Shown here one piece after another: positions 1 through 31,077 of a stretch of 64,000 bases of DNA. This stretch comes from a virus, in the IMG/VR virus record IMGVR_UViG_3300013132_000047, positions 1 to 64,000 of that record. One strand, 5' to 3'. The notes under the pieces are model-generated. The model had not been told where the DNA came from. It ran no database searches and was given only the letters and a program-made list of their open reading frames with translations. Position numbers and translations under genes: made by a program. Positions within the stretch are counted from its first letter, which is position 1. Each line of letters opens with the position of its first letter.

Positions 1-109
1 AGACTTCGCGGTTGGCAAATTGAGAAATTAGTTCGATGGTCCGATCGGGCTCAACAGTGTTGACCCATATCAGTGGCGAACCAATACGGAGGTGTTGGAT
101 GAGTTCCAT
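1..109 (-). CDS. 5' end of a probable AAA+ ATPase (partial)
   Basis: The first 36 codons of a leftward gene that runs off the left edge of the window. The peptide begins MELIQHLRIGSPLIWVNTVE and continues with PDR and an FANREV segment. The pattern of a hydrophobic strand followed by a charged EPDR turn resembles the N-terminus of phage AAA-family ATPases of the Cdc48-like type, but no Walker motif lies inside the window. The ATG at 107-109 is preceded by a short gap after the next gene upstream. The family assignment is a guess; that this is the start of a real gene is likely from the reading frame and spacing. Confidence 0.45.
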   Translation of the reverse strand, partial: MELIQHLRIGSPLIWVNTVEPDRTIELISQFANREV

Positions 110-117
110 TTTTAGTC

Positions 118-348
118 CTAAAAGGTAAGAGTGACGCCTGTTTCAATGTTTGATTCTTGAGCCCACTGCTCAAGATTGTCTATTTGAGACGGTGTTGAAG
201 CACGGTAATACCTTACAAATCGCCAACCGGCGTCTTTATAGAAGATCCCTGGAGGGAATTTTGTTGTGTCTTGCGGCTTGCTGAGCAACGACAAGGAAAC
301 GGCACCTACCATTGTGGTGTACATGCCGTAATAGTTGACTTTACCCAT
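118..348 (-). CDS. hypothetical protein, 76 aa
   Basis: Unrecognised small protein beginning MGKVNYYGMYTTM. The open frame extends further upstream, but that part overlaps the preceding gene by about 120 nt. The ATG at 348 gives only an 8-nt overlap with the stop of 341-868, which fits the coupling style of this genome. It contains a mid-protein segment rich in Phe, Tyr and Arg (GWRFVRYYRAS) and no cysteine cluster or membrane segment. Probably co-translated with 341-868. Confidence 0.6.
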   Translation of the reverse strand: MGKVNYYGMYTTMVGAVSLSLLSKPQDTTKFPPGIFYKDAGWRFVRYYRASTPSQIDNLEQWAQESNIETGVTLTF

Positions 349-868
349 ATGTGTAGTCACTTTCTTTATGCCATCCTTTTTCTTCTCGGGAAGAGGCAAC
401 TTGTATTGCTTGAACTTTGTCAAGAAGTTTCCTAGATGATTCTGAAGCAATGCGCGCAGCAACTTCTTGTGCCTCCGCTAATTCTATTATTGCTTCCAGG
501 ATAGACATTTCTATAAATTCTTTTTCTGCTGCAGCTATAGCATTTGCTTCACGCTCTTGAGCGTTTTTTGCTGCGCCACCTAATGCCGTTTTGAATTTAC
601 GCTTGTATCTTCCTTCGGCAAGTTTATAGTGCGCGCGGGCTATGCCGGCAAATCTGGCAATACGACCATAGTTGTTTGAAGTCCTAGCCACAAGTGACAT
701 TAGATCTTCTACCGTTAGGTCTATATCGTCTGACGTCGGCATTTCTATAAAAGATGAGCCCGCGCTACCCGGGTCGGAAGTTATAAGAGAAATTATTTGT
801 TCTAATTCTGGACCCAGAACATCAATTAAAAGATTTTCTGCTCTGAGTATAGAATTGTTATTATCCAT
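341..868 (-). CDS. hypothetical helical protein, 175 aa
   Basis: Unrecognised. The middle and C-terminal parts are rich in Ala, Glu and Arg with heptad-like spacing (about residues 65-160), suggesting a largely helical, possibly coiled-coil protein. The ATG at 868 is preceded by a good ribosome binding site (AAAGGGAGAA). A strong hairpin (888-929) lies just before that site, separating it from the GC-rich gene upstream. No catalytic motif is visible. Confidence 0.7.
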   Translation of the reverse strand: MDNNNSILRAENLLIDVLGPELEQIISLITSDPGSAGSSFIEMPTSDDIDLTVEDLMSLVARTSNNYGRIARFAGIARAHYKLAEGRYKRKFKTALGGAAKNAQEREANAIAAAEKEFIEMSILEAIIELAEAQEVAARIASESSRKLLDKVQAIQVASSREEKGWHKESDYTYG

Positions 869-887
869 TTCTCCCTTTCTAGCCTGG

Positions 888-929
888 GCCCCAGTTTACA
901 CTTTACGGAGCATAAGTGCAAACTGGGGC
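888..929 (-). other. strong intergenic hairpin
   Basis: A 16-nt inverted repeat (arms 888-903 and 914-929, one A-C mismatch) around a 10-nt loop. It sits between the stop of the GC-rich gene 952-1260 and the ribosome binding site of 341-868. There is no U-tract on the leftward strand, so it is more likely an mRNA-stabilising or processing hairpin, or an attenuator, than a classical intrinsic terminator. Confidence 0.65.
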
Positions 930-951
930 GTACAGACTAACTATCTACTCT

Positions 952-1260
952 TCAGACGAAAAGCTCGTCAACCTCATCGGCGGAGAGCTTGTGTACGCTC
1001 TCGGTCTCGACGTCGAGGATGCGGTTTCCGTTGACGCTCTTGGGACGGAAGGACTGAATCGCGGATTCGCGGTTCGGAGCCTCTACCCAGAAGGTACCGG
1101 TGATCTCGTAGATGCTGGGCTCAGCATTACGGGTCCAGTTGGCCTTCATAGCGGCGGCGGAAGCAACGCTGATCTTGAGGGTCTTAGCGACATCCTGGCT
1201 GGTCTTGCCCTTGGAAAACATGTCGTAAGCCTTGTCGCGCTTTGCATCAGTCAGTGTCAT
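952..1260 (-). CDS. small HTH-like protein, 102 aa
   Basis: Begins MTLTDAKRDKAYDMFSKGKT. The ATG at 1260 is chosen over an in-frame upstream ATG because a clear AAGGAG lies 8-9 nt before it. Residues about 8-40 (KAYDMFSKGKTSQDVAKTL, then a second helix ISVASAAAMKANW) look like a helix-turn-helix of the sigma-region-4/resolvase kind, so DNA binding is plausible. The C-terminal half carries WVEAPNRESAIQSF, a small alpha/beta segment. Its G+C content is clearly higher than that of its neighbours and it is followed by a strong hairpin, which suggests high expression. Function not known. Confidence 0.7.
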   Translation of the reverse strand: MTLTDAKRDKAYDMFSKGKTSQDVAKTLKISVASAAAMKANWTRNAEPSIYEITGTFWVEAPNRESAIQSFRPKSVNGNRILDVETESVHKLSADEVDELFV

Positions 1261-1279
1261 TATTGTTTCTCCTTGAATT

Positions 1280-2338
1280 TTATTCATTAATCTGTATATT
1301 CTGGTTATCGTAGAAGTTAGAGTTAGCGTTATTCAAAAGCCTTACTATCTCAGCCAATGAATTTTTGACCCACTCTTTAGTATTATTATTCGGATAAATA
1401 CTATACCAGTGAGATTCCATTGGAGTTGATGCTTTATTACCCTTATAATGGATAATGCCTTTTGGAACAACGGCCATATCTGATTCGATATGTGTTTTGA
1501 CCAAACATGACCAACTCATCCACGCGCTGTGCAATAAATCATTATTTGAATAAAGCAAATAGTGTCGTAGTTGGTCATAGTTTAGCAAGCCCATATCATG
1601 CAAGTCTAATAGATTTTCTGCAACTACGTTCCATAGAAGTTGTCTGGAGTTCCAGTTATCTCTAAAAGACATTGCGGTGTTAGTGAGTCTAAACCAGCAT
1701 CCGTTATGGGTCAATTTATTCTTGGTTGATGAAATTAATTTAATTGTTTCTTCGCCGAATATTGACATAAAGTCAGCATGGATGTAACTCACTGAGCCAG
1801 CAGACAAAGATCTTATGGCGTCTGTTAAGTCGCCACTCCAAACCTTTGCTTCTGGCCATTTTCTCTCAATTTGCTCAAAAGTCGAACGATTTCGTTCAAC
1901 TAAAAACAATTGAGATTTATTGACAGAACAGGCGTCTATCAATTCTTTGGGCTCAACGGATAGTTCTGGTAGCATAACGCAGTATCCGGAGCTAAGATCT
2001 ATATTTATAGAAGATTTCTCTGCTACAGAAATTTGTCTCTTCACAGATATATCATAAAGAGATTCTTCTATATAGCTAGAAGGTATTTCTATACCAAGAT
2101 ATTCTAAACCGTATCTTGTCGGAACCCAAATGTCTGCTCTTCTGCCTCGTTTAGTCCGAGGGTGAAGGTCTTGTTTGCGTTTTATTAAACGATTGTGCAA
2201 TAATTCTTTGCGTGATGAGAGAAAACTTTTTTGGGTAACAAGTTTTGCTCCACGTAACTCCATGGAGGTAACGGCTTTATTGGCAGCAATGTAGTCAAGT
2301 AGCATTACTGCTTCGTCTGAAATTTTTATAGTAACCAC
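1280..2338 (-). CDS. winged-helix N-terminus plus Rossmann-like domain, about 352 aa
   Basis: Unrecognised. The open frame runs further upstream, but that part is antisense-like sequence overlapping the Ubl gene, so a GTG near 2338 (or the ATG at 2305) is the likely start. Residues about 1-75 look like a winged helix (AVMLLDYIAANKAVTSMEL, then a basic RTKRGRRAD wing). A later segment (LFLVERNRSTFEQI, EAKVWSGDLTDAIRSL, YIHADFMS) has the alternating strand/helix look of a Rossmann fold, perhaps methyltransferase-like, but no clear SAM-binding glycine motif is seen. It directly follows the Ubl cassette and the hairpin at 2351-2390. Confidence 0.6.
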   Translation of the reverse strand: MVTIKISDEAVMLLDYIAANKAVTSMELRGAKLVTQKSFLSSRKELLHNRLIKRKQDLHPRTKRGRRADIWVPTRYGLEYLGIEIPSSYIEESLYDISVKRQISVAEKSSINIDLSSGYCVMLPELSVEPKELIDACSVNKSQLFLVERNRSTFEQIERKWPEAKVWSGDLTDAIRSLSAGSVSYIHADFMSIFGEETIKLISSTKNKLTHNGCWFRLTNTAMSFRDNWNSRQLLWNVVAENLLDLHDMGLLNYDQLRHYLLYSNNDLLHSAWMSWSCLVKTHIESDMAVVPKGIIHYKGNKASTPMESHWYSIYPNNNTKEWVKNSLAEIVRLLNNANSNFYDNQNIQINE

Positions 2339-2350
2339 CCCTTTGGTAGC

Positions 2351-2390
2351 CCCTGCGGTAGAGAGATTTGTTATTCCCCCTACCGCAGGG
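2351..2390 (-). other. 11-bp hairpin after the Ubl gene
   Basis: Perfect inverted repeat CCCTGCGGTAG (2351-2361) and its complement (2380-2390) with an 18-nt loop. It lies downstream of the Ubl stop codon on the leftward strand, with no U-tract. It closely parallels the hairpin after the other GC-rich short gene (888-929), so it may protect or punctuate an abundant transcript. Confidence 0.65.
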
Positions 2391-2405
2391 AAACCGAAGT
2401 GACTA

Positions 2406-2651
2406 TCAGCCCTTCTCGCCAGCGCGGCGATGGAACTCGATGTTGTCACCAGGCTGAATGACGTAGGTGTCATCCAACTTCTCTTTGCCCTTGTAAGCGC
2501 TGGCATCGGTGGGAATGCCCCACATCGAACCAAACTGATTACGAAGGTCAGAAACACTCTTGCCTACGTGGTTACCTGGGTTGTTGTAAACACCGTAGCG
2601 TATCTGAGCGGCGCCGCCACTCTGTGCGCCTGAAGATGATGCCTGCTGCAT
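2406..2651 (-). CDS. ubiquitin-like (beta-grasp) protein, PRTRC protein C-like, 81 aa
   Basis: Short protein with a Ser/Gly-rich N-tail (residues 1-15), then an alternating beta-grasp-like core with LRNQFG (helix) and the strand YVIQPGDNIEF (63-73), ending RRAGEKG. A terminal Gly after a flexible tail is what an E1-type enzyme adenylates, and the G-x-KG ending matches what I recall for PRTRC protein C, a ubiquitin-like family. The ATG at 2651 has AAGGAG 6-7 nt upstream, inside the last codons of the E1-like gene, so the two are coupled. It is GC-richer than its neighbours and followed by a strong hairpin, both suggesting that it is the most abundant product of the cassette, as expected for a modifier. 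Assignment is from motif and context, without a structure search. Confidence 0.72.
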   Translation of the reverse strand: MQQASSSGAQSGGAAQIRYGVYNNPGNHVGKSVSDLRNQFGSMWGIPTDASAYKGKEKLDDTYVIQPGDNIEFHRRAGEKG

Positions 2652-2652
2652 G

Positions 2653-3435
2653 TTATGCTCCTTGGTAAACTAACTCGTTAACGTTAACGCTGCGATCAAA
2701 ACTTTGGGCCAAACCGGCTTCCAAATCAAAGAAATACTCCGAGTTAGAAGCCGGATCTTTGCCCTCAACAATGACCATATTAAACCGTGCCAGCAGGGCT
2801 GCAGTCACGGCCATATTCGTAGCAAGAAGTTGCGTTCCTCCATCGAGTTGCGCTCGTTCTTGACACGACATTTCCCCAGGGTTACGGTCAGGAGGGTCTA
2901 CATATTCCTCGTGCCATACCGATGGGTGATCTACTAGTTCAATTCCGTCACGTTTTGCATAGTGATAGGTTGAACCAAAATATCTTTCGTCGTTACCACC
3001 TAGAAAAACATCTACGTTGTTTAATTCGGTGGCAGCATCGATAAGTTGTTTGCGCGCTTTGAAGTTATCAACAACGGCAAAAACAACATCATTTTCAACA
3101 AGAAGATCACCAGCAGCAATTTTACCCGCTACTGGTGAACCATCATCTTCTTGCTCTTCATCTTTACTTACCCCAACTTTATCTACAACCCAATACGGCA
3201 TTGGGATAATAAATGTTCGCTCAAATTGCGGGGTCAATTCAGCGGCTAGAACTTCGGCTTTGTTACCAACACCATTGAAGAATTGACGTTGTTTGTTTTT
3301 AGCCTCAAAGTTATCGCCGTCTACGATGATTAACGCAGAACCTGGCATGCGCCATTCAAGTGTCATAGCAATAGACCTTGAAAGTAGCGAACCTATGCCT
3401 CCTGCGCCAACAATGATGACGCGTTTTTCTTCCAT
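2653..3435 (-). CDS. ThiF/E1-like Ubl-activating enzyme, 260 aa
   Basis: Adenylates the C-terminal Gly of a ubiquitin-like protein (family knowledge). Seen here: the nucleotide-binding loop GAGGIG (10-15), the acidic strand end IIVDGDNFEAKNKQRQFF (36-53) with the Asp/Arg that contact ATP, Lys59, Asp123 in VVDNFKAR, and a single candidate catalytic cysteine, Cys191 (GEMSCQERAQL), followed by a TQLLATNMAV helix typical of PRTRC ThiF proteins. No CxxC zinc pairs are present, unlike MoeB/ThiF. The ATG at 3435 overlaps the preceding stop as TGATG. It lies between the zinc protein and the Ubl gene in the PRTRC-like cassette. Confident as ThiF-fold; the PRTRC subtype is likely. Confidence 0.85.
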   Translation of the reverse strand: MEEKRVIIVGAGGIGSLLSRSIAMTLEWRMPGSALIIVDGDNFEAKNKQRQFFNGVGNKAEVLAAELTPQFERTFIIPMPYWVVDKVGVSKDEEQEDDGSPVAGKIAAGDLLVENDVVFAVVDNFKARKQLIDAATELNNVDVFLGGNDERYFGSTYHYAKRDGIELVDHPSVWHEEYVDPPDRNPGEMSCQERAQLDGGTQLLATNMAVTAALLARFNMVIVEGKDPASNSEYFFDLEAGLAQSFDRSVNVNELVYQGA

Positions 3436-3983
3436 CAAAAATCTCCATAGTTAATTGACATTAAAGATTCTGCTACGTATCTATCGTCTTCAAAGTCAGA
3501 ACATATAGTTACAGGTTCACCGATGACACCGTTTTTAATAAAGTTGACAACATAACCCGTCAAAGGTAAACACTCTTCTGAATATTGATACATGCAGTTA
3601 CTACAACCACCTGGGCTGTGATCCCCATATATTTGATTCCAAATATCAACTGGAATTTTATCGGTATCATCCCAATCAATAGGGACTTCGCAGAAGCAGT
3701 CAGACCAATTCTTATGACAACAAATCATTAATGGTTCGTTATTAGCAGAAGAGCGGTTTATTGCTTCAATATCTTCAAAAGATGCTTGCTGAAGATACAG
3801 GTCCCAATCTGTTTCGGTGAATTCAACACCACATTTCATGCAGTCATTATCTCCGTACTCAACAAACCCACTACAATTGGGGTTGAGACAGTTAATGAGA
3901 AATATTTCATCTGTGGTTTGAATTGCGTCATAGGCAACAGAACAATATGGGCAGGATGAAAAAGTTTCTTCATGGTCGTTCAA
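3435..3983 (-). CDS. zinc-cluster protein inside the Ubl cassette, at least 182 aa
   Basis: Unrecognised protein with many cysteine pairs: SCPYC, then CLNPNC, CMKC, CCHKNWSDCFC and GCSNCMYQ, which look like successive zinc ribbons. The only standard start in frame is the TTG at 3983, which has no ribosome binding site. Upstream the frame stays open and encodes another pair (GYCKNC), and it reaches an ATA at 4052 that overlaps the st JAMM stop as ATAA. Translation may therefore begin at a non-standard AUA. It sits between the JAMM and E1-like genes, where standard PRTRC cassettes have no equivalent I know of. It could be an adaptor or a ligase-like partner; that is speculation. Confidence 0.7.
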   Translation of the reverse strand: MNDHEETFSSCPYCSVAYDAIQTTDEIFLINCLNPNCSGFVEYGDNDCMKCGVEFTETDWDLYLQQASFEDIEAINRSSANNEPLMICCHKNWSDCFCEVPIDWDDTDKIPVDIWNQIYGDHSPGGCSNCMYQYSEECLPLTGYVVNFIKNGVIGEPVTICSDFEDDRYVAESLMSINYGDF

Positions 3984-4048
3984 TTGGGCAAAACAGTTTT
4001 TGCAGTAACCAAGCCAATCATTATGATTGACATGCCCATTTGAACGAC

Positions 4049-5302
4049 TTATGCTTTTCCCGAAGCTGTAGACCCCTTTGGGGATCCGTAAACAAGTTCT
4101 ATCTTTTCTTGTCCCGACCTAGTCCAGACGTAAATGTTTTTGTCTGGACTTTTGTCGATATCAATTTCATTAGAAAATATACCTTGAGTATTGCGAATCT
4201 TGAGTATATCTTCGAGGCAGTCACCATCTTTTTCGAACATTAAGAAAGAATGGCAACTTAAACAACGACGCTTATCAATATCGGATTTGATAAGACGGGT
4301 TTCGCAGAACGGGCACTTATCTTCCCCAATTATTACTTCACCAACTATCGTGTTTTCTTTTGGGTCGGGGAAATGAGCAGGAACTTTAACCGTCTTTGAC
4401 CTAAACGAGGCAGAACTGGAAGAGTACTGCCTGCCACTGCTGTAGTTGTCGTAACCATAGTTTGAATACGCGTAGCCCGAACTTGGTGTGCCGACAGTGG
4501 CTGTCTTTTTCGTTACCTTCTTAAGCCAGTTATCAATTTCTGGCGAAGGCTGCCCTTTTGGGAGCGATTCAAAAACCTGATCGGGATCCATTGTGAAAGC
4601 GCCGCCAGGAGTCTGCAGCTCAATATAGTACTGAGTTGCATTATTGTTGACGCTTTTCTGCCAGCCATAAGTGATATGGATTCCGGGGAAATCAGCTTGG
4701 TCTTTATGATCTGTGCCACTTGCAAAGGCAGCCATATTTGGATGCGAATGCGCAGAACCAACTAGATAAACATTTTCATCTTTTTCAGAAACAATTGACT
4801 CATGATCGTAACGGCAATCGCCCGCAGTATTTTCCTGATCTGGGACCAAAACACCCCAACCATCGCTGGGATGTTCTGACTCGGCAAACCTGGGATCATA
4901 TGTCAACAGCACAATTGACTCGGTATTGTAGATATTTTCTACTTCCCGAAAGAAATCGTCCATCATCTGCACTAAAGAAAACGGAATTAAAGGCAAAGAG
5001 TACCACGCCTGACTACGCATAGTGTCAAGACCAAGTTCGTCAGGATTAGCTACGGTTACAGACCTAGAAACTATAGTGGAAACAACTTTGAATATTGATG
5101 GCCTAACAGAAGTCTTGGTAGTTTTATTTTCTGTTATGTTGTACTGCTCGACACCAATGACGTAATAGAAAGTGTATCCGTGCGCTTCAACATGCTGGCA
5201 TATATCTGCGACATCGCCAATAAAGCATGGCATACCGTTTGGCAGATCAAACTGCTTTAGTTCCTCTAGTGGAATTAGTTGAAATTCTTCAGTAGTGGTC
5301 AT
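4049..5302 (-). CDS. JAMM/MPN metalloprotease, PRTRC protein A-like, 417 aa
   Basis: Zinc isopeptidase/protease of the JAB family, which trims Ubl precursors or removes Ubls from targets. The JAMM signature is clear: H185-x-H187-P188 followed by S195 and D198 (SAHSHPNMAAFASGTDHKD). The N-terminal part (1-125) is a separate domain. After a Tyr/Ser-rich linker (277-300) comes a zinc ribbon with C330/C333 and C347/C350. The gene follows the E2-like gene by 9 nt and precedes the zinc protein. It may mature the second Ubl (12341-12610), which carries residues after its Gly-Gly. Strong family call; the substrate is inferred. Confidence 0.87.
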   Translation of the reverse strand: MTTTEEFQLIPLEELKQFDLPNGMPCFIGDVADICQHVEAHGYTFYYVIGVEQYNITENKTTKTSVRPSIFKVVSTIVSRSVTVANPDELGLDTMRSQAWYSLPLIPFSLVQMMDDFFREVENIYNTESIVLLTYDPRFAESEHPSDGWGVLVPDQENTAGDCRYDHESIVSEKDENVYLVGSAHSHPNMAAFASGTDHKDQADFPGIHITYGWQKSVNNNATQYYIELQTPGGAFTMDPDQVFESLPKGQPSPEIDNWLKKVTKKTATVGTPSSGYAYSNYGYDNYSSGRQYSSSSASFRSKTVKVPAHFPDPKENTIVGEVIIGEDKCPFCETRLIKSDIDKRRCLSCHSFLMFEKDGDCLEDILKIRNTQGIFSNEIDIDKSPDKNIYVWTRSGQEKIELVYGSPKGSTASGKA

Positions 5303-5311
5303 TACTTTCCT

Positions 5312-6673
5312 TTAAGGAGTAGAAAATACATCAGCGATCATTTGTGTCAAAGTTGAAAAATCTTCTTCTGACACAAAATTGCATTGAGGACAACGATTTT
5401 TTTCTTCAATATCAATTGATGGCATAAGCAAAGAACATTCAGGACAATGTATTAATTCGAGACATTTTTGACAGTGGAAATTATCTTTATAATAATAAAG
5501 TTGACTATAGTGGTGATGAATATCGCATGACAGACAAAGTTCGTAATAGTCATGTAAACAAATTTCGCATACAACGCCATCTGATGACTCTACATGAAAA
5601 GATTTTTCATCGTAGTTCTTTTTACACTCTATGCAGTAAAAACCAGTGTTGATTGGGATAATAGGGTTTGATACCGGTTTTTCTGTAGACACTTGCAGTG
5701 GGACGGCAGCATTAAATGCTTTTGTTAACCCAGCGGTTATATCTTTGGAATCTGGGTTTTCTAAGTCTGGACGACTGATTTTTTGATAAGCTTTAGGAAA
5801 CATTGCATCGTGATAGTACGCACGATATTTCCCGTCCATAGCCATACCTACGGTTAAAAAGTCAGCGTCAGGCGCATCACAGTGCCTATCTTGACTGTCA
5901 ATGCCTTTTACCCTTACGGGAATCCACAGACTTGGATCGAGTGTCCACCCAAAACCATCTGAAGAAGATTTTTCTTCCCAAGCGCTTGGATCCCAAAGAT
6001 ATTCAAAATCATATATATTTAAAGACGGATCAGAAGTTATTTCTTTAAAGTATTGCTCTTCATAAAATCGTGGTCCGTCTGTTTCGTTCATGTTGGCATC
6101 GTTGTAGGCTTCACCACCACCAGCGCGGTCAATGAGGTTAGCAATTTTTTGGCCAACATTTAAATCTTTGATAGAAGGTTTGTTGTGGTAAAGGCATATC
6201 CAGCCTACACCGTTGCCAATTCCATTTACTTTTGCGCCGTAACCTTTACAGTTTAGATTTGGAAGGTTAACGTGAAAAAGTATTTGTTCCTTGCTTGTTA
6301 TTGGTTCTACAGAGTAAAAATGACGAGCGCCATAAAATTCCCCGTCTACAAAATCACCAATAACAATACGGTAAGGCATTGCAAGGTCGTATGTGTGGGC
6401 TTCTGGATCACCTTCAGAATTACCCCAGATGACCCTGTAGAGACCAGGGGCATGCTGGAACACTACCTGCATATGCCCAAGGGCTTGACGGATCGAAAGA
6501 GTGCCCGATCCGTCAAGGGGCAGCAACCCAGTTTCAAAGTAAACTTGATCTTTCAACGCTACAAAAAAATCAATAAGAGACTTTTCTTTTGCGTTAGCCG
6601 TAGGCATATTTGCAATGCTTTGAACTACGTTATCTGAATTTAGGGTATATTCAAAATTCATGCCTAAAGACAT
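5312..6673 (-). CDS. E2-like protein (PRTRC protein B-like) with C-terminal zinc array, 453 aa
   Basis: Residues about 35-175 resemble the E2-like PRTRC B family: a helix, strands, a long HVNLPNLNCKG segment (134-144) and GVGWICLYHNK (155-165), where Cys160 is the best candidate for the thioester cysteine (Cys142 is the alternative). The middle (180-330) is acidic and unrecognised. The C-terminus (347-431) has six CxxC pairs (CIEC, CEIC, CLSC, CQKC, CPEC, CPQC) plus HHH at 386-388, similar to LIM/RING-type zinc arrangements. An E2 joined to a zinc module could combine conjugation with ligase or target binding. It is the first gene of the cassette. The E2 call depends on fold-level similarity only. 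Confidence 0.66.
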   Translation of the reverse strand: MSLGMNFEYTLNSDNVVQSIANMPTANAKEKSLIDFFVALKDQVYFETGLLPLDGSGTLSIRQALGHMQVVFQHAPGLYRVIWGNSEGDPEAHTYDLAMPYRIVIGDFVDGEFYGARHFYSVEPITSKEQILFHVNLPNLNCKGYGAKVNGIGNGVGWICLYHNKPSIKDLNVGQKIANLIDRAGGGEAYNDANMNETDGPRFYEEQYFKEITSDPSLNIYDFEYLWDPSAWEEKSSSDGFGWTLDPSLWIPVRVKGIDSQDRHCDAPDADFLTVGMAMDGKYRAYYHDAMFPKAYQKISRPDLENPDSKDITAGLTKAFNAAVPLQVSTEKPVSNPIIPINTGFYCIECKKNYDEKSFHVESSDGVVCEICLHDYYELCLSCDIHHHYSQLYYYKDNFHCQKCLELIHCPECSLLMPSIDIEEKNRCPQCNFVSEEDFSTLTQMIADVFSTP

Positions 6674-6678
6674 TTTAG

Positions 6679-7077
6679 TTAACTTTCGTCTACGCTAAAA
6701 AACTTTTTGATAGTTTCATTTATTTCTTCATCAAAATCACCAAAAGCCCAAGCAAGCCAGTTGGGGTCTTTTTCGGCGATATCAAGAAGTTGTTTTCTTT
6801 GTTGAAGTTCGTCGTAGGGACCAATAAGATCAGCAAGTCTTCCTAATCCTTTTGCCAAACCTGCTAGCTCTTCCTGATCATGAGTTAACTGAAGGATGAG
6901 ACCGAGTATAGGGTTGCCTTCGATGGTAAATTTCTTTACAATATTTTCAATTCGGATTTCTAGCGCTTCAAGTTGAAGCTCTACTTCTGCTCTGGCAAAA
7001 GAAGCGCTAGAGGAATTGAATCTGAAAGAATTTATTGGACTGTTAGGCAACCTTTCATGCGAAGGTTGTACTGTCAA
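6679..7077 (-). CDS. hypothetical protein, 132 aa
   Basis: Unrecognised. A TTG at 7077 with AGGG about 9 nt upstream is the likely start, giving a 23-nt overlap with the preceding gene; no ATG lies early in the frame. The middle is helical and Glu/Leu-rich (ARAEVELQLEALEIRI), the end acidic. It stops 5 nt before the E2-like gene and may be the first cistron of the same transcript. Confidence 0.6.
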   Translation of the reverse strand: MTVQPSHERLPNSPINSFRFNSSSASFARAEVELQLEALEIRIENIVKKFTIEGNPILGLILQLTHDQEELAGLAKGLGRLADLIGPYDELQQRKQLLDIAEKDPNWLAWAFGDFDEEINETIKKFFSVDES

Positions 7078-7300
7078 AGTTGAATCCCTTGTTAGAGGTT
7101 TGACGTTTTTGGATGTAGTCGAGTAATTCTCTTACCGACCACCAAGCAGTGCAGAGTGCTACAATGCTACGAGTAATAAGTCTTATTATATATTCTTCCT
7201 TTGTTCCCGAAAATGGGCTTGCGCCACCCATTTGGACATCAAAATAAATACTGTCAAAAAATAACTGTATATCTTTTATCGTTTTGTGTGTCTGATCCAT
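7055..7300 (-). CDS. hypothetical protein, 81 aa
   Basis: Unrecognised. The ATG at 7300 (MDQTHKTIKDIQ) is preferred over a TTG 21 nt upstream because it has an AAGCGAG purine stretch before it. It contains a hydrophobic helix (SIVALCTAWWSVRELLDYI) that could be membrane-associated or buried. Overlaps the next gene. Confidence 0.55.
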   Translation of the reverse strand: MDQTHKTIKDIQLFFDSIYFDVQMGGASPFSGTKEEYIIRLITRSIVALCTAWWSVRELLDYIQKRQTSNKGFNFDSTTFA

Positions 7301-7403
7301 AACTCGCTTTATGTCTTTCAATTAAATTTGTTTTATTTATTTTTTGATCTAAACGCAGATTTAAGAGTTTAGATATTGCTCCGATTAAAATAAATACAGT
7401 CAT
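7254..7403 (-). CDS. possible small membrane peptide, 49 aa
   Basis: Short frame starting MTVFILIGAISKLLNLRL, one hydrophobic helix followed by a charged tail. It fills the gap after the whiB-like gene but has no visible ribosome binding site and overlaps 7055-7300. Could be chance. Confidence 0.25.
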   Translation of the reverse strand: MTVFILIGAISKLLNLRLDQKINKTNLIERHKASYGSDTQNDKRYTVIF

Positions 7404-7409: not shown

Positions 7410-7919
7410 TTATAACTTTAATTCTGATAAACGTAAATCTATTTTGTCTAAACGTTCAGCAAAAATTTCTGCTAGAACGTCTTCATCTATTCCATTTTCT
7501 TTGATGAAACGTTCATGCATTTGTGCAACTATAGAATCAATTATAAATTCTGATTCCATATCCCAAGAAATCCAGATATTTCCATAAGACTCTTTTATGT
7601 GCCTTATGGTGTTTTGAATTTCTTTAGAACTATACCCCCCCCAAATACCGTAGTCTTCTTGGTTGACTAACGCTAGTTTTAGGCATTGTCGAGTCACTGG
7701 GCAAGTAGTGCAGATTTCTTCTGCTACAGATTTTTCTTGTGCGTGGCTGCGCGGAAACATTGTTCCAACATCAACCGCCCAGCAACTCGACAATGGAGCC
7801 CAATTTTTCTTACTTGTTTGAAGATGCCGGTAAAAATGCTCTAAAGCTTTATATGGTGGTAATGGAAGTTCTTCTTCATCGTCTTCGGTTTTTGCATCAA
7901 TCTTTAAAATCTGATTCAT
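7410..7919 (-). CDS. WhiB-like iron-sulfur transcription factor, 169 aa
   Basis: Actinobacteria and their phages use WhiB-like proteins, which bind a 4Fe-4S cluster and the primary sigma factor to alter transcription. Four ligand cysteines are visible: C46, C70, C73 and C79 (SSCW, ICTTCPVTRQC), followed by the family glycine turn GIWGG (91-95). The C-terminal 70 residues are longer than in most WhiB proteins and helical, ending in an acidic/basic region (AERLDKIDLRLSEL). The N-terminal 40 residues are acidic. The start overlaps the preceding gene by 23 nt. Likely reprogrammes host or phage transcription. Confidence 0.9.
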   Translation of the reverse strand: MNQILKIDAKTEDDEEELPLPPYKALEHFYRHLQTSKKNWAPLSSCWAVDVGTMFPRSHAQEKSVAEEICTTCPVTRQCLKLALVNQEDYGIWGGYSSKEIQNTIRHIKESYGNIWISWDMESEFIIDSIVAQMHERFIKENGIDEDVLAEIFAERLDKIDLRLSELKL

Positions 7920-11157: not shown

Positions 11158-11859
11158 TTAAACGCAAACTATTTCATTAAGATCATGTTTAGAGCATACA
11201 GATTCAATTGTATTGTTAGCTTTATAATTGCTGTCAATTTCTGTGTTTGAACTTGGCCAAAAATCTATTGGAATTTCTCCACGTCTTTGCCAAGTAAGAA
11301 AGTACTGAGGCCAATTTTTAATCTTGCGATTTAATTGCGTATAAAACCACAGTAAAACTGGATTACAAGATAATTGTTCTATAAAGCGAAAATCATTATT
11401 GCCTTTATCATTCATGAATACACTATACAGGTCATTGAAAGTTTTTATAGGGTCAAAATCTATTGAGGCATTTTGCAGAAACTCTGATCTTGCAAACTCT
11501 GGTTCTTGCTCTATTCGCCTGTAATCTGAGGTTCCAGAGAAACAAAGGTAGCTGATTGAATAATTGCTTAAAGGCGCATTAAATAAAAACGGATCGTCTT
11601 TTAGATTAGAACTAAAGTATATATCTAAAAAGCTACTTCTACCTGTTTCCCCTAACTGCCCTACGTTACATAATGTTTTAGTGGAATATACTACAAAATA
11701 TGTCCACGGAACAGAAATATAGTATTCTTTTGAAGCATAGCTATATTTCATTATTTGGGGCTCTAATCGTATCAACGATTTGCATGATTTTGTTTCACGC
11801 CACTTTTCCCCATACATTGTCGTGAACGTTTCGTATTTTGATTTGATAATTTCTATCAT
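11158..11859 (-). CDS. hypothetical protein, 233 aa
   Basis: Unrecognised. Begins MIEIIKSKYETFTTMYGEKW; the ATG at 11859 is 2 nt past the mature 3' end of the tmRNA and has no ribosome binding site, so translation may depend on tmRNA processing, or a later start may be used. Rich in aromatic residues (PWTYFVVYS, PVLLWFYTQL). Its last codons form a GTTTGCG/CGCAAAC hairpin just before the tRNA-like element. Confidence 0.6.
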   Translation of the reverse strand: MIEIIKSKYETFTTMYGEKWRETKSCKSLIRLEPQIMKYSYASKEYYISVPWTYFVVYSTKTLCNVGQLGETGRSSFLDIYFSSNLKDDPFLFNAPLSNYSISYLCFSGTSDYRRIEQEPEFARSEFLQNASIDFDPIKTFNDLYSVFMNDKGNNDFRFIEQLSCNPVLLWFYTQLNRKIKNWPQYFLTWQRRGEIPIDFWPSSNTEIDSNYKANNTIESVCSKHDLNEIVCV

Positions 11860-11861
11860 AG

Positions 11862-12251
11862 TGGAGCTGGGGGGAATCGAACCCCCGTCTTTCGGGTGAA
11901 ACTTTATTGTGATACAACCATTCCCGTTTTAGCGACGGGTCGCTAGGGCCGATCGGCTCTGTGGGAGCTTCACGATTCCACCATCCGCGCTTTCTCGGAA
12001 GTCAAACAGTCTTTCCTGTTGGTCTATTTGTCTTTCCAAATTGTCCCTCTAGTTTCCGTTGACAGGCACTAGATAAGCCCCGGGCACTAGTCAGACTAGT
12101 GCACCCTCCTCAACGAGGAGAGTGGCCAGTTCGGCATCCCAATCGCAGACGTAATCATCGGCGTTTATTTTTGTGCCCCGTTTAACGTCTCTGAGCAAGA
12201 CGGGTTGCACGCAAAAGTTTCCTGGACCCAAAATCGAAACCAGTCAGCCCC
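11862..12251 (-). ncRNA. ssrA: tmRNA (transfer-messenger RNA)
   Basis: About 390 nt. The 5' end GGGGCTGACTGGTTTCGA pairs its first 7 nt with CAGCTCC near the 3' end (7 bp with one G-U); the T-arm GGGGG-TTCGATT-CCCCC precedes it. CCA is not encoded. The tag frame runs from about 12162 to the TGA at 12093-12091, which lies in the loop of a GCACTAGT/ACTAGTGC hairpin as is usual. Read from the GCC at 12162 the tag would be 23 residues, starting ADDYVCDWD and ending EEGALV, much longer than the usual 10-15 and without the LAA/ALA ending. The exact resume codon is inferred. Rescues stalled ribosomes. Confidence 0.92.
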
Positions 12252-12265
12252 GCTGTTGTAGTAAG

Positions 12266-12337
12266 AGCCTCCTCAGAGAATCGAACTCTGATCTCGGCTT
12301 TACAAGAGCCGTGTAATAGCCGTTATACTAAAGAGGC
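12266..12337 (-). tRNA. tRNA-Thr (anticodon TGT)
   Basis: Cloverleaf with acceptor GCCTCTT, anticodon stem-loop CGGCT-CTTGTAA-AGCCG giving anticodon TGT (reads ACA), and T-arm with TTCGATT. 72 nt, CCA not encoded. It lies 14 nt upstream of the tmRNA 5' end, so both may be processed from one precursor. Confidence 0.93.
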
Positions 12338-12340
12338 ATT

Positions 12341-12610
12341 TTAAAGAGAGGCTTGTCTTTCTAATTCCACAATACCTCCCGGAGTGAAAAACTCAATTTC
12401 ATCATCGTCTTGCAAAACGTAATCCCATGAAACTTGAATACAACTTGTGATCATGCTAGTCACGGGATTACGCTTCAAAACCTTCATTGGGGAGTGGTTT
12501 AGGGAAATCCCAGTAAAATACTGTTTATTAGACACAACAGTTTGCTGTATTGTTGTTCCTGCAGCACTTTGGAATTTTAATCTTGTATCGCCCCAAATAA
12601 TTTTAACCAT
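12341..12610 (-). CDS. second ubiquitin-like (beta-grasp) protein, 89 aa
   Basis: Starts with strand MVKIIWGDTRLKF and ends in YVLQDDDEIEFFTPGG (64-79) plus a 10-residue tail IVELERQASL. The segment YVLQDDDEIEF closely matches YVIQPGDNIEF of the cassette Ubl at 2406-2651, so the two look like paralogous beta-grasp proteins. The Gly-Gly followed by a tail resembles a Ubl precursor that a JAMM protease would trim. The ATG at 12610 has a strong GGAGGAGG. It sits 9.7 kb from the E1/JAMM/E2 genes, between a tRNA and small unknown genes. The Ubl call is by motif and is tentative. Confidence 0.6.
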   Translation of the reverse strand: MVKIIWGDTRLKFQSAAGTTIQQTVVSNKQYFTGISLNHSPMKVLKRNPVTSMITSCIQVSWDYVLQDDDEIEFFTPGGIVELERQASL

Positions 12611-12764
12611 GTTTTTCCTCCTCCCCTTTTCTTTTTAGATTATCGTAAATATCTTGTATTTTATCTTCAGCTTTTTTAAGCTCTGATTTCTTGTTTTTCT
12701 TTGTTATGCGTTTTGGCACTATCTTTCCAAACACTAAATCCACTGACATGAGATTTCTGATCAT
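12603..12764 (-). CDS. hypothetical basic protein, about 53 aa
   Basis: Lys-rich helical protein ending KRKGEEEKHG, overlapping the Ubl start by 8 nt. The start is uncertain (ATG at 12764 or 12749); a longer version would overlap almost all of 12676-12834. No known motif. Confidence 0.45.
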   Translation of the reverse strand: MIRNLMSVDLVFGKIVPKRITKKNKKSELKKAEDKIQDIYDNLKRKGEEEKHG

Positions 12765-12834
12765 GTCCCCACGGAAGAAGGCATTGTTCATACATGTTAT
12801 TTGGATTTTTTTCAAGGCATCGACATAATTTCAT
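12676..12834 (-). CDS. small zinc-motif protein, 52 aa
   Basis: Reads MKLCRCLEKNPNNMYEQC followed by LLPWGHDQKSH. The CxC ... C-x5-H-x4-H arrangement is the pattern of small actinophage zinc proteins (C-x-LP-GH---H type). The ATG overlaps the previous stop as ATGA. Function unknown. Confidence 0.6.
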   Translation of the reverse strand: MKLCRCLEKNPNNMYEQCLLPWGHDQKSHVSGFSVWKDSAKTHNKEKQEIRA

Positions 12835-25816: not shown

Positions 25817-26199
25817 GCATGATCCTTTTCGTTAAGAGGATCTTTTACATAGCCACTGAATAAAGCGGAAAGTCCGTCAGTAAAATCTTTATCAAAGAAC
25901 GGATCACCTTCAGGTTTCCAGTCGTAGATTACGAAATCAAATCGTTCATCTTGATAAAGATAAAATTCTTGTTGAGCGTCTGGTGGGCGATTTACTTTAC
26001 GTTGAGAGGTAGTTGGTTCGTTAGTTTCTTTGCTATTTCTATCAAGTAGTGAACTGAGCACTGCTAGCGGACCCACTTGCATAATGTCGCCACCAGATCC
26101 TGCACCAAAAATTGGCGCAACAGAAAGATAGGTGGATTTACGCCAGTTGTTAAACCTAACAAATGGATTACGCAATTGGGAGGTCTGCTGTAGGGTCAA
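25801..26199 (-). CDS. hypothetical protein, 132 aa
   Basis: Start TTG 26199 (no good ribosome binding site; the first ATG is 117 nt later but the segment before it looks coding). Acidic aromatic C-terminus (FDFVIYDWKPEGDPFFD). Unrecognised. Confidence 0.55.
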   Translation of the reverse strand: MTLQQTSQLRNPFVRFNNWRKSTYLSVAPIFGAGSGGDIMQVGPLAVLSSLLDRNSKETNEPTTSQRKVNRPPDAQQEFYLYQDERFDFVIYDWKPEGDPFFDKDFTDGLSALFSGYVKDPLNEKDHAWAFM

Positions 26200-26548
26200 T
26201 CATCGGAGGCATAGGCAATGCGTGCATTGGCTGCATCGGTTGCATTACTGGCGTATAATGCGACTGATAGTAGCTAGCTTGCGGATTGTATGCGAATGGC
26301 GACGATGATCGTTTGAACATGTCATCAACCGGTTTACAAACACTGCGCGCACAATCACATGCTGTGACAGCACCTTTCTTGAGCGCATTAGTGCTAAGTT
26401 GCATTGTTTTCAATGACCCCGCCAACGTGTTGAGCGAAGCCATTGGACCAACAATGCCCGGAATTCCAGTCGTAATGAAGAAAGTTTCAGACCGGAACTG
26501 GCGAAGCCTGGTACGTAGTGACTTTAGTTTGCCAACTGTTTGACTCAT
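26168..26548 (-). CDS. hypothetical protein with Met/Pro-rich tail, 126 aa
   Basis: ATG 26548 (MSQTVGKLKSLRTRLRQF) with GGAGG 8 nt upstream. A hydrophobic/Gly stretch (FFITTGIPGIVGPMASL) may be membrane-associated; the C-terminus is low complexity with PMQPMQPMHALPMPPM repeats. Adjacent to the M50-type proteases; may be their partner, by context only. Confidence 0.6.
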   Translation of the reverse strand: MSQTVGKLKSLRTRLRQFRSETFFITTGIPGIVGPMASLNTLAGSLKTMQLSTNALKKGAVTACDCARSVCKPVDDMFKRSSSPFAYNPQASYYQSHYTPVMQPMQPMHALPMPPMIDPTADLPIA

Positions 26549-27002
26549 CTTTGTGCCTCCGATAGCGGCGCCCATCGGCACCGAATGTACCTGACCAAAC
26601 CTGAAACAGCAACATCCAAAACGATGCCCAAGCCATTGGCGTAAACTTAATTGCAATGGCAATGAACATGGTGATGATGGAAACAATAGAACCAATCATC
26701 GGCCCCGCCAAGGCGACCGATTGTAGATGATTGGGATCTTTGCCTTTTACTGTTGTACCCCCTAGTACACCATAGATCAGAGGGATAAAAAATGGCAGCA
26801 ATGGCATTTGACCAGTTTTTGCCGCGGCAAAATAATGACCAAATTCATGAGCAGCAACAATCAAAAAGATGATTGCACCGAGCCACAAAGGCAACATTGC
26901 GTACAATACAGCAGCAGTGGCTGCTGCGGTACCGACACAATAGGTTGCTTGCCAAGCAGCACGTTTTACTTTCTTAAAGTTGATCTTCTTATGCCATGTC
27001 AT
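26487..27002 (-). CDS. M50-type (site-2 protease-like) membrane metalloprotease, 171 aa
   Basis: Zinc motif HEFGH at 52-56 inside a membrane helix (GAIIFLIVAAHEFGHYFAA), further hydrophobic helices at about 20-40, 68-82 and 95-135, and GADGRR (141-146) as the likely third-ligand Asp motif. About 170 residues is a minimal M50 core lacking PDZ or CBS domains. Starts inside the end of 26989-27174. Such enzymes cut membrane-embedded proteins, often anti-sigma factors; the target here is unknown. Confidence 0.82.
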   Translation of the reverse strand: MTWHKKINFKKVKRAAWQATYCVGTAAATAAVLYAMLPLWLGAIIFLIVAAHEFGHYFAAAKTGQMPLLPFFIPLIYGVLGGTTVKGKDPNHLQSVALAGPMIGSIVSIITMFIAIAIKFTPMAWASFWMLLFQVWSGTFGADGRRYRRHKDESNSWQTKVTTYQASPVPV

Positions 27003-27174
27003 ATGCGAGCCCCATCTCGGTAGCGAGCACACGGCTACGACGATTTACGTTGCTCAACCATTTCTCAGCAAACGGGCTGACAAGCGCATCAAACGTTTGC
27101 TTGAAAAGCCAGCCAAGAAAACTTAAAACAAACCACTTAGTCACTCCTTTGAGAATAAAGGATGCAACTTTCAT
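26989..27174 (-). CDS. small amphipathic/membrane protein, 61 aa
   Basis: MKVASFILKGVTKWFVLSFL begins an amphipathic or single membrane helix, followed by a basic region (VNRRSRVLATE). It lies between the two M50-type protease genes and overlaps both (ATGA start), so it may be a regulator or substrate; that is inference from position. Confidence 0.65.
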   Translation of the reverse strand: MKVASFILKGVTKWFVLSFLGWLFKQTFDALVSPFAEKWLSNVNRRSRVLATEMGLAYDMA

Positions 27175-27686
27175 AGCGCTACCTTCCAGTCTGTTTCGGC
27201 GTGAATGTCACAGGGTACTGAAATGTGCGAGACATTTGTAACTACTTTTGTCCCCTCCTTTGCTTTTCTGAATTTGCGGCCATCAGAACCAAACGTTGCT
27301 GCAAAGATTTCACGGACGGCCATGCCGCCAGCGAACAATGCACCTAGCGTTGAGCCAACTAGCATGAAAGCGATGAGCATAGCCGCACTTACTAAAGTGC
27401 CGGCCAGCGGTCCTGCCATTGCGATCGCACGGATCTTCGAAAAATCCTTGGTAGGTATCCATGTCGCTCCTATTGCTAACGGTCCTAATGGAATAAACAT
27501 TGGCAATGCTGTTTTTGTGTTGAGTAGTTTGGCCGCACCAAAATGACCAAGTTCATGTGCTATCAACACAGCCAACATTATAATCAAAATCCAATAAGGA
27601 TAGAACACTAGCATGATTGCGGCAGAAGCTGCAATGCTGCCCATGAACCATCCTATTTGTATAACTGACCAAGTAATTTTTTTCAT
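27171..27686 (-). CDS. second M50-type membrane metalloprotease, 171 aa
   Basis: Paralogue of 26487-27002 with the same length and layout: HELGH at 44-48 (VLIAHELGHFGAAKLL), PLGPLAIGATW, an AGPLAGTLVS helix and GSDGRKFRK (133-141) matching GADGRR of its neighbour. Four or so hydrophobic helices. The C-terminus (KVVTNVSHISVPCD) is soluble. Sequence similarity and adjacency indicate tandem duplication. Confidence 0.83.
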   Translation of the reverse strand: MKKITWSVIQIGWFMGSIAASAAIMLVFYPYWILIIMLAVLIAHELGHFGAAKLLNTKTALPMFIPLGPLAIGATWIPTKDFSKIRAIAMAGPLAGTLVSAAMLIAFMLVGSTLGALFAGGMAVREIFAATFGSDGRKFRKAKEGTKVVTNVSHISVPCDIHAETDWKVAL

Positions 27687-28048
27687 TAGATCTCAAATGT
27701 TTGGTTGATGAGCTCGTGAGTTTTGTTTCGAGGATACATGCGCAACACTTGAATGTGAAGTTTTCTATCGTCTTGATGGGTGAGAATTTTTCCGTGGAAT
27801 CCACCGTACTTGATGTGGTGCAGCCACGAGATTTGACGTGTCTCTGGTGAGTCAAGAACCCATCGCGTGTTAGGAGAATCTTTTCTAAGGTTTTGGGTGG
27901 CAATCACGAAGATGCCGTGAACTGTTCTGCGAAGCAGATGTTCGCTGTCATCTATTGTTTCAACGACAAGCGTTTCACGCCCTACACGTGCTATGCGTGT
28001 GGGGCTGTGAAGAGCGTTGTGGATTGATACCATTACATCAGCGTTCAT
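27686..28048 (-). CDS. hypothetical protein, 120 aa
   Basis: ATG 28048 (MNADVMVSIHNALHSPTRIA) with AAGGAG 10 nt upstream. Beta-rich, many His and Arg; C-terminus WVLDSPETRQISWLHHIKYG. First gene of the leftward M50 run. A perfect ACCCATAT/ATATGGGT hairpin (28075-28092) lies in its leader. Confidence 0.62.
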   Translation of the reverse strand: MNADVMVSIHNALHSPTRIARVGRETLVVETIDDSEHLLRRTVHGIFVIATQNLRKDSPNTRWVLDSPETRQISWLHHIKYGGFHGKILTHQDDRKLHIQVLRMYPRNKTHELINQTFEI

Positions 28049-28226
28049 ACTTTGATACTCCTTTGTTGGTATAAACCCATATAAATATGGGTACAAGTAT
28101 GGATGTGAAAGTATCGTTTTGTGTGTTTTAAGAAATGTTGAGTTACATTATTGGATTTTGTTTCATTTAAGCGCATACATATACAAATTGAACTCATTAA
28201 CATTTCTGTGATTTAAAAAACGACAG

Positions 28227-28276
28227 AAAAAAGCGTGTTGGGGGTCGACCCGAAGGCCGACCCCCGTAGCACACGC
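28227..28276 (-). terminator. intrinsic terminator
   Basis: On the leftward strand, GCGTGT (outer) and GGGGGTCG/CGACCCCC (inner) form a strong GC hairpin followed by TTTTTT (the A-run at 28227-28232 on the plus strand). It lies 6 nt after the stop of 28282-29340, a textbook terminator and the clearest one in the window. Confidence 0.88.
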
Positions 28277-28281
28277 AGTGG

Positions 28282-29340: not shown

Positions 29341-29400
29341 AGTGGCTATTACCTCATTGTTTGTGTGGTTGTGTTGGATAGGGAAATCAGGAGACAGTTG

Positions 29401-29562
29401 CTATTGCGTGTCTCCCTCTTCCCCTTCTTCCCCTTCATAGGGATCTGTGTTTGTGGGATCGTCATAAGCAATGACAAGCCAGCACAAAAGAACTATTGGA
29501 ATGATGATGATTATGAACGGCGAAATCACAAATTTCATGAGTAACACGAATAGGATTTCCAT
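29401..29562 (-). CDS. small membrane protein, 53 aa
   Basis: One long hydrophobic helix (ISPFIIIIIPIVLLCWLVIA) followed by an acidic tail (PYEGEEGEEGD). ATG after GGAGGTG. Topology and acidic tail suggest a holin-accessory-like or other single-pass protein, not assignable. Confidence 0.65.
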   Translation of the reverse strand: MEILFVLLMKFVISPFIIIIIPIVLLCWLVIAYDDPTNTDPYEGEEGEEGDTQ

Positions 29563-29602
29563 GACACCTCCAGTAAGGATTGAACTTACTTGTTGGAATG
29601 GG

Positions 29603-29625
29603 TGAGCAGTTTTACAACATGCTCA
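29603..29625 (-). promoter_or_regulatory. recurring leader hairpin, copy 3
   Basis: Perfect stem TGAGCA/TGCTCA with loop GTTTTACAACA and AGGTT flank. Differs from the 37955 copy by a compensated G-C to A-T pair. Next to it (29573-29589) is a T-arm-like GTAAG-TTCAATC-CTTAC on the leftward strand. Confidence 0.55.
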
Positions 29626-29635
29626 GGTTTGGCGA

Positions 29636-29905
29636 TCAGTGGTTTCGGTCGCTGAGGTCGCTCAGTTCAAGAGCTCGACACATCACTGCGAACATTGAGG
29701 GGTTCTCGATGAATTCGTCAATCGAGATGTGCGGTTTGAACCAGTTTGGAACTTTGTCAAAGTTCCAACCATCCTTGGCGTACCAAGCAAACCGACAATC
29801 TTTACACCAGCAGAGATCGTAGTCTCCGTGGAGGTTTGTGCTTGGTATTGCTTGACGGTCAAGATTTCGGTCGGAAACCCAACAGTCAACGTGATAGCGG
29901 ATCAT
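29636..29905 (-). CDS. zinc-motif protein, 89 aa
   Basis: Contains DCWVSDRN and DLCWCKDCRFAWYAK, a CxCxxC cluster. Aromatic-rich. ATG with AAAGGATG upstream. Unrecognised. Confidence 0.65.
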   Translation of the reverse strand: MIRYHVDCWVSDRNLDRQAIPSTNLHGDYDLCWCKDCRFAWYAKDGWNFDKVPNWFKPHISIDEFIENPSMFAVMCRALELSDLSDRNH

Positions 29906-29939
29906 CCTGCATCCTTTCTGTTGTTGGTTGAAACATGTG

Positions 29940-30012
<73 letters not shown>

Positions 30013-30016
30013 AAGC

Positions 30017-30062: not shown

Positions 30063-30075
30063 ACATCTTTTACAC

Positions 30076-31056: not shown

Positions 31057-31077
31057 TGGGGTATCCTTTCCTGGTGG

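Follow-up and report, generated by a model that had tools for sequence, protein, structure and literature searches.

A large freshwater bacterial virus, IMG/VR record IMGVR_UViG_3300013132_000047, and some 30 relatives carry a compact set of genes resembling the ubiquitin tagging machinery of cells: a ubiquitin-like protein (Ubl), a ThiF/E1-like and an E2-like enzyme that should attach it, and a JAMM protease that should remove it. This suggests that these viruses label proteins during infection. The sequence analyzed here, referred to as the window, comprises the first 64,000 nucleotides of the record. The viral origin of the record, which is 68,180 bp long, is supported by the presence of genes for a terminase large subunit, a UvsX-like recombinase, WhiB, and tmRNA. 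The initial annotation described five consecutive leftward genes encoding an E2-like protein, a JAMM protease, a zinc protein, a ThiF/E1-like enzyme, and a glycine-ending Ubl, and this observation is confirmed, including the positions of the catalytic motifs. Its interpretation, that the genes form a PRTRC-type conjugation cassette with which the phage modifies host or phage proteins or counters host defence, is only partly supported.

Table 1. Genes of the putative Ubl conjugation cassette and the adjacent upstream gene; positions refer to the window.
Position	Strand	Product	Length (aa)	Features
5312..6673	-	E2-like protein	453	N-terminal domain with LPN(L)NC...GWIC160LYH; C-terminal LIM/treble-clef-like zinc region (Cys 347-431)
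4049..5302	-	JAMM/JAB metalloprotease	417	H185-S-H187-P-x6-S195-x2-D198; C-terminal zinc ribbon (C330, C333, C347, C350)
3435..3983	-	Cys-rich putative zinc protein	182	Separated C-terminal domain of the JAMM protein
2653..3438	-	ThiF/E1-like adenylating enzyme	260 (from the ATG at 3435)	GxGGxG (G10-G15); C191 in SCQE
2406..2651	-	Ubiquitin-like protein	81	C-terminus HRRAGEKG
6679..7077	-	Conserved neighbour upstream of the E2-like gene		132 aa; may be co-transcribed

The spacing of the genes is operon-like. The E2-like and JAMM genes are separated by 9 nt, the JAMM and Cys-rich genes by 65 nt, and the ThiF and Ubl genes by 1 nt, whereas the Cys-rich and ThiF genes overlap. The same order of the four core genes was found in all 67 fetched loci in which all four genes were present, 29 of which are non-redundant IMG/VR loci, many of them on contigs of 190-216 kb. 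The gene upstream of the E2-like gene occupies the same position in 23 of 23 compared phages. The cysteine-rich gene is not a fifth component, in contrast to the initial annotation. Its profile matches the fused 540-590 aa JAMM proteins of other phages, whose additional C-terminal part carries the same cysteine pattern. It is separate only in the window and in two related loci, L001 and L002.

The named residues of the cassette proteins are (nearly) invariant in the 29 relatives. These include C191 of the ThiF protein, P138, N139, C142, and C160 of the E2-like protein, and the JAMM motif HSHPNMAAFASGTD, which has the canonical spacing HxH-x7-S-x2-D. The glycine tail of the Ubl is conserved in 29 of 29 relatives, and in two of them (loci L071 and L074) it is followed by a removable-looking SL extension, which fits a need for processing by the JAMM protease. 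Synonymous divergence is near saturation, whereas dN is 0.06-0.12 for ThiF and Ubl (dN/dS 0.03-0.07), indicating strong purifying selection on these two proteins.

The ThiF protein matches the Pfam ThiF family with 43.9 bits against a gathering cut-off of 28.1 (E 2e-11), and its profile identifies UBA5 as its relatives in the PDB. UBA5 is a minimal E1 that forms a thioester and hands on to an E2 (PMC12355090). The JAMM protein matches Prok-JAB with an E-value of 2e-4, which is below the gathering score. The E2-like, Cys-rich, and Ubl proteins have no hit to any family, and PDB sequence searches with the Ubl and E2-like proteins gave no credible hit. An NF040525 (sortase) hit to nine Ubls, with a best E-value of 1e-3, is taken as chance.

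The AlphaFold model of the Ubl has a beta-beta-alpha-beta-beta-beta topology with a mean pLDDT of 80. The 50 listed Foldseek hits of the model in the PDB are ubiquitin-family folds with a probability of 1.00 and a best E-value of 1.3e-3, and include ubiquitin, NEDD8, SUMO, ISG15, and archaeal ubiquitin. The assignment of the E2-like protein is weaker. Its AlphaFold model has a mean pLDDT of 78.6, but the Foldseek search of the PDB identified only LIM domains, which match the zinc part, and no E2. A search of viral models returned an uncharacterised homologue from an uncultured Caudovirales phage (A0A6J5P0Y8) and an unnamed 241 aa protein (A0A7R7G2H5). A profile comparison connects the protein to PRTRC_B/Prok-E2_D, with the LPN...C region aligned, but the link is weak (best P 0.003), although the score of 26.3 is above the maximum of 23.9 obtained with 148 shuffled controls. 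Furthermore, a second invariant cysteine, C142, is positioned close to C160, and the Asn-to-Cys spacing of 15-21 residues is longer than the 8 residues usual in PRTRC_B. The assignment of either cysteine as the catalytic one is therefore only putative.

PRTRC (ParB-related, ThiF-related cassette) systems are encoded on plasmids, and operon type 6d of Iyer et al. 2006 (PMC1779556) matches their description. They contain a Ubl usually with a KG tail (C), an E2-like protein (B), a JAMM protein (A), and ThiF. The gene order B-A-ThiF of the window is the same in five plasmid cassettes (L090, L091, L092, L094, and L095). Profile-profile comparison (hhalign) links the ThiF protein to PRTRC_ThiF with a P-value of 4e-14 against plasmid members alone, and C191 aligns with the conserved SC cysteine of PRTRC ThiF. 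The JAMM protein is linked to PRTRC_A with a P-value of 7e-4 against plasmid members alone and 1e-15 once phage members are added, and PRTRC_A contains the related motif HSHxxxxAFxSxxD. A profile comparison that included window sequences on both sides was excluded. The score of the Ubl against PRTRC_C was not reached by any of 150 shuffles; however, an unrelated control profile scored 19.5 against 22.2, so this result is support and not proof.

Membership of the cassette in PRTRC, as proposed in the initial annotation, is not supported. None of the NCBIfam cut-offs (TIGR03736, 03735, 03737, and 03738 for ThiF, A, B, and C) is reached: ThiF scores 21.9 bits against 144.75 and A 15.7 against 101.8, and there is no hit for B or C. 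The PRTRC ParB family (TIGR03734) has no match in ten lineage members of 190-216 kb, although it is not known whether these contigs are complete. In the ThiF tree the window family and PRTRC form separate monophyletic clades (support 100/98 and 100/99), with the deeper order unresolved. No PRTRC E or F gene was recognised in the compared neighbourhood of the cassette, a comparison that did not extend to family searches of whole genomes. The Ubl gene follows ThiF instead of being upstream, and the E2-like and JAMM proteins have zinc tails.

Searches of 50,697 phage records for close named relatives of the cassette by tblastn with the window ThiF, the E2-like protein, and the L001 Ubl, and by blastn with positions 1-7400, returned nothing, and a scan of about 85,000 species genomes found no cellular relatives. 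However, more distant B-A-ThiF cassettes, with only about 25% ThiF identity, are present in cultured or named DNA phages: Bacillus phage KLEB27-3, Salmonella phage Arash, Vibrio phages D69/D148/D181, and faecal phage MT835919. In these phages, genes for E2-like (Prok-E2_D-like), JAMM, and ThiF proteins are close together, but there are no zinc tails like those described here. The cultured phage KLEB27-3 has four tandem Ubl units in a single fusion (Prok_Ub, four stretches, 94 bits) near the E2-like, JAMM, and ThiF homologues, which is the layout of a polyubiquitin precursor. No Ubl was recognised next to the enzymes in Arash or D69. We found no paper describing such a system in phages.

The best explanation, which we consider more likely than not, is that the cassette is a phage-encoded Ubl conjugation and deconjugation system and a divergent relative of plasmid PRTRC systems. 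In the proposed route, the ThiF protein would adenylate the C-terminal Gly81 of the Ubl and hold it as a thioester on C191, as a UBA5/Uba4-like single-domain E1. The Ubl would then pass to C160 of the E2-like protein, whose LIM-like zinc tail would place it on substrates, and the JAMM protease would trim extended Ubl precursors and remove the Ubl from substrates. The gene set and order, the conservation of the catalytic residues, the predicted ubiquitin fold of the Ubl, and the homology of ThiF and JAMM to PRTRC proteins are established by the present analysis. In contrast, each enzymatic step, including adenylation, thioester transfer, and formation of isopeptide conjugates, the role of the E2-like protein, the existence of phage or host protein substrates, and any purpose in infection, including use against host defence, are inferred. 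Reversible tagging of proteins during infection is the most likely use. The UFM1 system, with UBA5 as E1 and UFC1 as E2, similarly employs a single-domain E1 with the catalytic cysteine in the adenylation fold, but it is eukaryotic, has no JAMM protein in the pathway, and UFM1 ends in Val-Gly.

It is possible, but unlikely, that the ThiF protein produces a Ubl thiocarboxylate that donates sulphur to a cofactor, nucleobase, or tRNA, as ThiS, MoaD, or Urm1 do, with the JAMM protein only trimming the carrier. ThiF-type E1s and beta-grasp carriers are used in this way, the generic thiamine ThiF model is the best NCBIfam hit of the protein, and large phages modify bases and tRNAs. However, a conserved E2-like partner with a (nearly) invariant cysteine and a zinc tail has no role in sulphur transfer, and no rhodanese domain was found in eleven records of 190-217 kb. 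The Ubl tail is EKG, not the GG of ThiS and MoaD, although the single terminal glycine instead of Gly-Gly also counts against the conjugation model.

Similarly unlikely is a counter-defence use of the same chemistry, in which the Ubl or JAMM protein competes with or strips host Ubl conjugation used in Bil or CBASS defence. Bacteria use Ubl conjugation against phages (PMC10097602, and the work on Bil cited in PMC13373217), and a JAMM protease could reverse it. However, a whole, self-consistent conjugation set is more than a decoy or a protease needs, and its strong conservation and constant neighbourhood look like a core function rather than a fast-evolving anti-defence gene. Bil, Bub, and type II CBASS loci share with the cassette Ubl or Ubl-like conjugation with E1-like, E2-like, and JAB proteins, but they are cellular loci with a defence or putative defence role. 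Type II CBASS fuses E2 and E1 in Cap2, beside a CD-NTase, whereas here the two enzymes are separate. A PADLOC scan returned only weak generic E1-E2 and JAB hits, and the E1-E2 models align only to the first 50-90 residues of the ThiF protein.

A role in virion maturation or delivery, in which the enzymes modify phage proteins or are carried in the particle and act on the host at once, somewhat like the Ubl/JAB pair of lambda tail assembly, appears least likely. Homologous E1, JAMM, and E2-like proteins of Salmonella phage Arash (Gp246, Gp247, and Gp248) were reported by mass spectrometry in purified particles (PMC10585845). However, Arash particles held 116 proteins, and carry-over is possible. 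Lambda-type tail clusters pair a Ubl (protein I) with a JAB peptidase (protein K) (PMC1779556), but they have no E1 or E2 and are located in the tail gene cluster. In the lineage studied here, the cassette lies beside an AAA+ ATPase gene and other genes with no sign of tail function, some of which look SSB-like by eye.

A more far-reaching possibility, which remains tentative, is that a lineage of about 200 kb freshwater phages runs its own complete, reversible Ubl tagging pathway as a core infection function, comprising the Ubl, a minimal E1, an E2 with a built-in LIM-like ligase module, and a JAMM deconjugase, perhaps feeding tagged proteins to the AAA+ ATPase encoded just downstream. The proximity of the AAA+ gene is not proof of a partnership, because AAA+ and the cassette are inherited together in the lineage, and L001 and L002 have genes between them.

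Ubl conjugation in bacteria is known so far mainly as cellular machinery, much of it aimed against phages. A phage lineage that keeps a whole conjugation and deconjugation set, with E1 and Ubl the most constrained of the genes compared, would mean that phages also tag proteins for their own ends. The cassette makes the question of what PRTRC-like cassettes do testable in a simple system of four genes, with clear catalytic residues and a defined Ubl tail. Phage KLEB27-3 offers an experimental entry and shows a polyubiquitin-like precursor in a virus of bacteria.

The studied sequence is part of an IMG/VR virus record of 68,180 bp, which encodes a terminase large subunit, a UvsX-like recombinase, a WhiB protein, a tmRNA, and five tRNAs. 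Near its left end, five tightly spaced genes are located on the minus strand. The initial annotation described these genes as a phage-borne, PRTRC-type ubiquitin-like conjugation cassette. The observation itself is confirmed. Every sequence motif that it named is present at the residues to which it was assigned. The WhiB-family regulator was identified with a Pfam E-value of 3.5e-16, similar proteins are encoded upstream of the cassette in related phages, and its presence points to actinobacterial hosts. The tmRNA carries the unusual tag ADDYVCDWDAELATLLVEEGALV, and its gene is next to that of a tRNA-Thr. A part of the sequence differs in composition from the rest, with the G+C content rising to 0.45–0.58, in comparison to 0.34–0.44 elsewhere.

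Coordinates of the cassette and of other features in the studied sequence and in related phages
Sequence	Position	Strand	Feature
Window	2406-6673	-	Five-gene cassette
Window	1280 to about 2336	-	Protein after the Ubl gene, conserved in the window, L001, and L002; the listed GTG start at 2557 overlaps the Ubl gene and is probably wrong
Window	7410-7919	-	WhiB-family regulator
Window	11859-12251	-	tmRNA
Window	26001-44000		Stretch of elevated G+C content
Window	31825-31904	-	Pistol ribozyme, 56.7 bits against gathering score 34.5
L006 (locus of a related phage)	11199-12803 and equivalents		AAA+ ATPase
L082 (OM634661.1, Bacillus phage vB_BauM_KLEB27-3)	688-1437		Four tandem Prok_Ub/PRTRC_C units

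Of the five proteins, ThiF passes the Pfam gathering score, and JAMM is recognizable but scores below it, whereas searches of the protein family databases with the other three returned no hit. The NCBIfam models PRTRC_ThiF and PRTRC_A are matched with only 21.9 and 15.7 bits, compared to cut-offs of 144.75 and 101.8, respectively.

Searches of IMG/VR first identified two contigs (L001 and L002, the closest relatives) with 88% identical ThiF and 85–89% identical Ubl, and subsequently some 40 contigs at about 55–70%. Of the 67 loci that contain all four genes, 29 have distinct ThiF sequences, and the order E2-JAMM-ThiF-Ubl never changes. In contrast, a scan of about 85,000 bacterial and archaeal species genomes did not find any relatives, and the collection of named phages does not contain close ones. 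Therefore, the cassette appears to be a phage lineage's own. In most members, the cysteine-rich protein is the C-terminal domain of a JAMM protein of 540–590 residues, whereas in the window and its two closest relatives it is encoded by a separate gene. One contig of 267,766 bp (3300042868_009074) contains two different copies of the cassette (loci L029/L080 and L024/L061), which are about 215 kb apart and share 188 of 254 residues of ThiF. This may be a phage with two cassettes or a chimeric assembly.

The residues conserved across the 29 loci include C191 and the GxGGxG/DxD/RQ motifs of ThiF; H185, H187, S195, and D198 of JAMM; and P138, N139, C142, and C160 of the E2-like protein. The Ubl has HRR(A/S)GEKG at its end in every case. 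Two of the Ubls, from loci L071 and L074, have the residues SL after the glycine, which would need to be removed before activation. In comparisons of the window, L001, and L002, synonymous sites are near saturation, whereas ThiF and Ubl have dN of 0.06–0.12 and dN/dS of 0.03–0.07. The E2-like, JAMM, and cysteine-rich proteins change faster.

The predicted model of the Ubl, calculated from an alignment of 29 sequences, has a mean pLDDT of 80 and contains the strand and helix order of the beta-grasp. Its 50 best matches in the PDB are ubiquitin, NEDD8, SUMO, ISG15, other ubiquitin-family domains, Caldiarchaeum ubiquitin, and designed ubiquitin variants, all with a probability of 1.00. The best E-value of 1.3e-3 is modest, as expected for such a small domain. 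The model of the E2-like protein (pLDDT 79) does not match any E2 in the PDB, and its cysteine-rich tail weakly resembles LIM domains. The initial annotation had proposed the predicted folds of these two proteins as a test of its reading; the Ubl model passes it, whereas the model of the E2-like protein does not decide the matter.

Operons of plasmid PRTRC systems are organized in the order E-C-F-B-A-ThiF. Profile-profile comparison to the plasmid members alone gave P-values of 4e-14 for ThiF, 7e-4 for JAMM, and 0.03 for Ubl, whereas that for the E2-like protein was not significant. After phage-borne members of the same families were added, the values were 3e-28 for ThiF, 1e-15 for JAMM, 0.001 for Ubl, and 0.003–0.02 for the E2-like protein, with its LPN...GWIC stretch positioned opposite the PFPN...MC stretch of the Prok-E2_D proteins. 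The real scores exceed those of all column shuffles for both Ubl (0 of 150) and the E2-like protein (0 of 148), although one unrelated control profile came close for the Ubl. In the ThiF tree, the window family and PRTRC form two separate, well-supported clades with the deeper order unresolved. Neither a PRTRC_parB nor a rhodanese gene was found in ten members of the lineage of 190–216 kb. An alternative function of the cassette in sulphur transfer is considered unlikely. The interpretation given in the initial annotation is partly supported: the cassette is related to PRTRC, and may work as PRTRC is predicted to work, but it is not PRTRC.

Related genes are present in other phages. Bacillus phage KLEB27-3, which has been cultured, encodes E2-like, JAMM, and ThiF proteins and, a few genes upstream of the E2-like gene, a protein formed of four tandem ubiquitin-like units, each ending AGVKG, followed by a short tail. 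This organization is that of a polyubiquitin-like precursor. Salmonella phage Arash and Vibrio phage D69 have B-A-ThiF cassettes without a recognized Ubl nearby, and Vibrio phages D148 and D181 contain matching E2-like and ThiF stretches. Burkholderia phage BgVeeders33 has C-, B-, A-, and ThiF-type PRTRC proteins. The E1-like, JAMM, and E2-like homologues of Arash (Gp246-248; locus L099), annotated as structural or hypothetical proteins, were reported by mass spectrometry in purified particles (PMC10585845). However, a role of the cassette in the virion is considered the least likely of the explanations.

A protein of 132 residues precedes the cassette and, in relatives, an AAA+ ATPase of 530 residues follows it, with further conserved genes beyond. 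The ATPase gene is directly downstream of the Ubl gene in relatives, but several genes further on in L001 and L002, and the record of the window ends before it. All 18 AAA+ loci with upstream sequence carry the cassette. This is linkage within one lineage and does not prove a joint function.

Literature searches did not identify any description of such a system in phages, although earlier notice cannot be excluded, since preprints and most subscription papers were outside their scope. A survey of 224 jumbo phages does not contain the terms JAB, ThiF, or E2 ligase (PMC7824862). In the proposed mechanism, ThiF would adenylate Gly81 of the Ubl and bind it as a thioester on C191, from which the Ubl would be transferred to C160 of the E2-like protein. 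The ligation would be aided by the zinc tail, and JAMM would process the Ubl and reverse the modification. The relay follows from the established chemistry of UBA5-type E1s, E2s, and JAMM proteases, but in contrast to the sequence observations, each of its steps is inferred. It is unlikely that counter-defence is the main purpose of the cassette. On present evidence, it is more likely than not that the cassette is a true protein-conjugation system.
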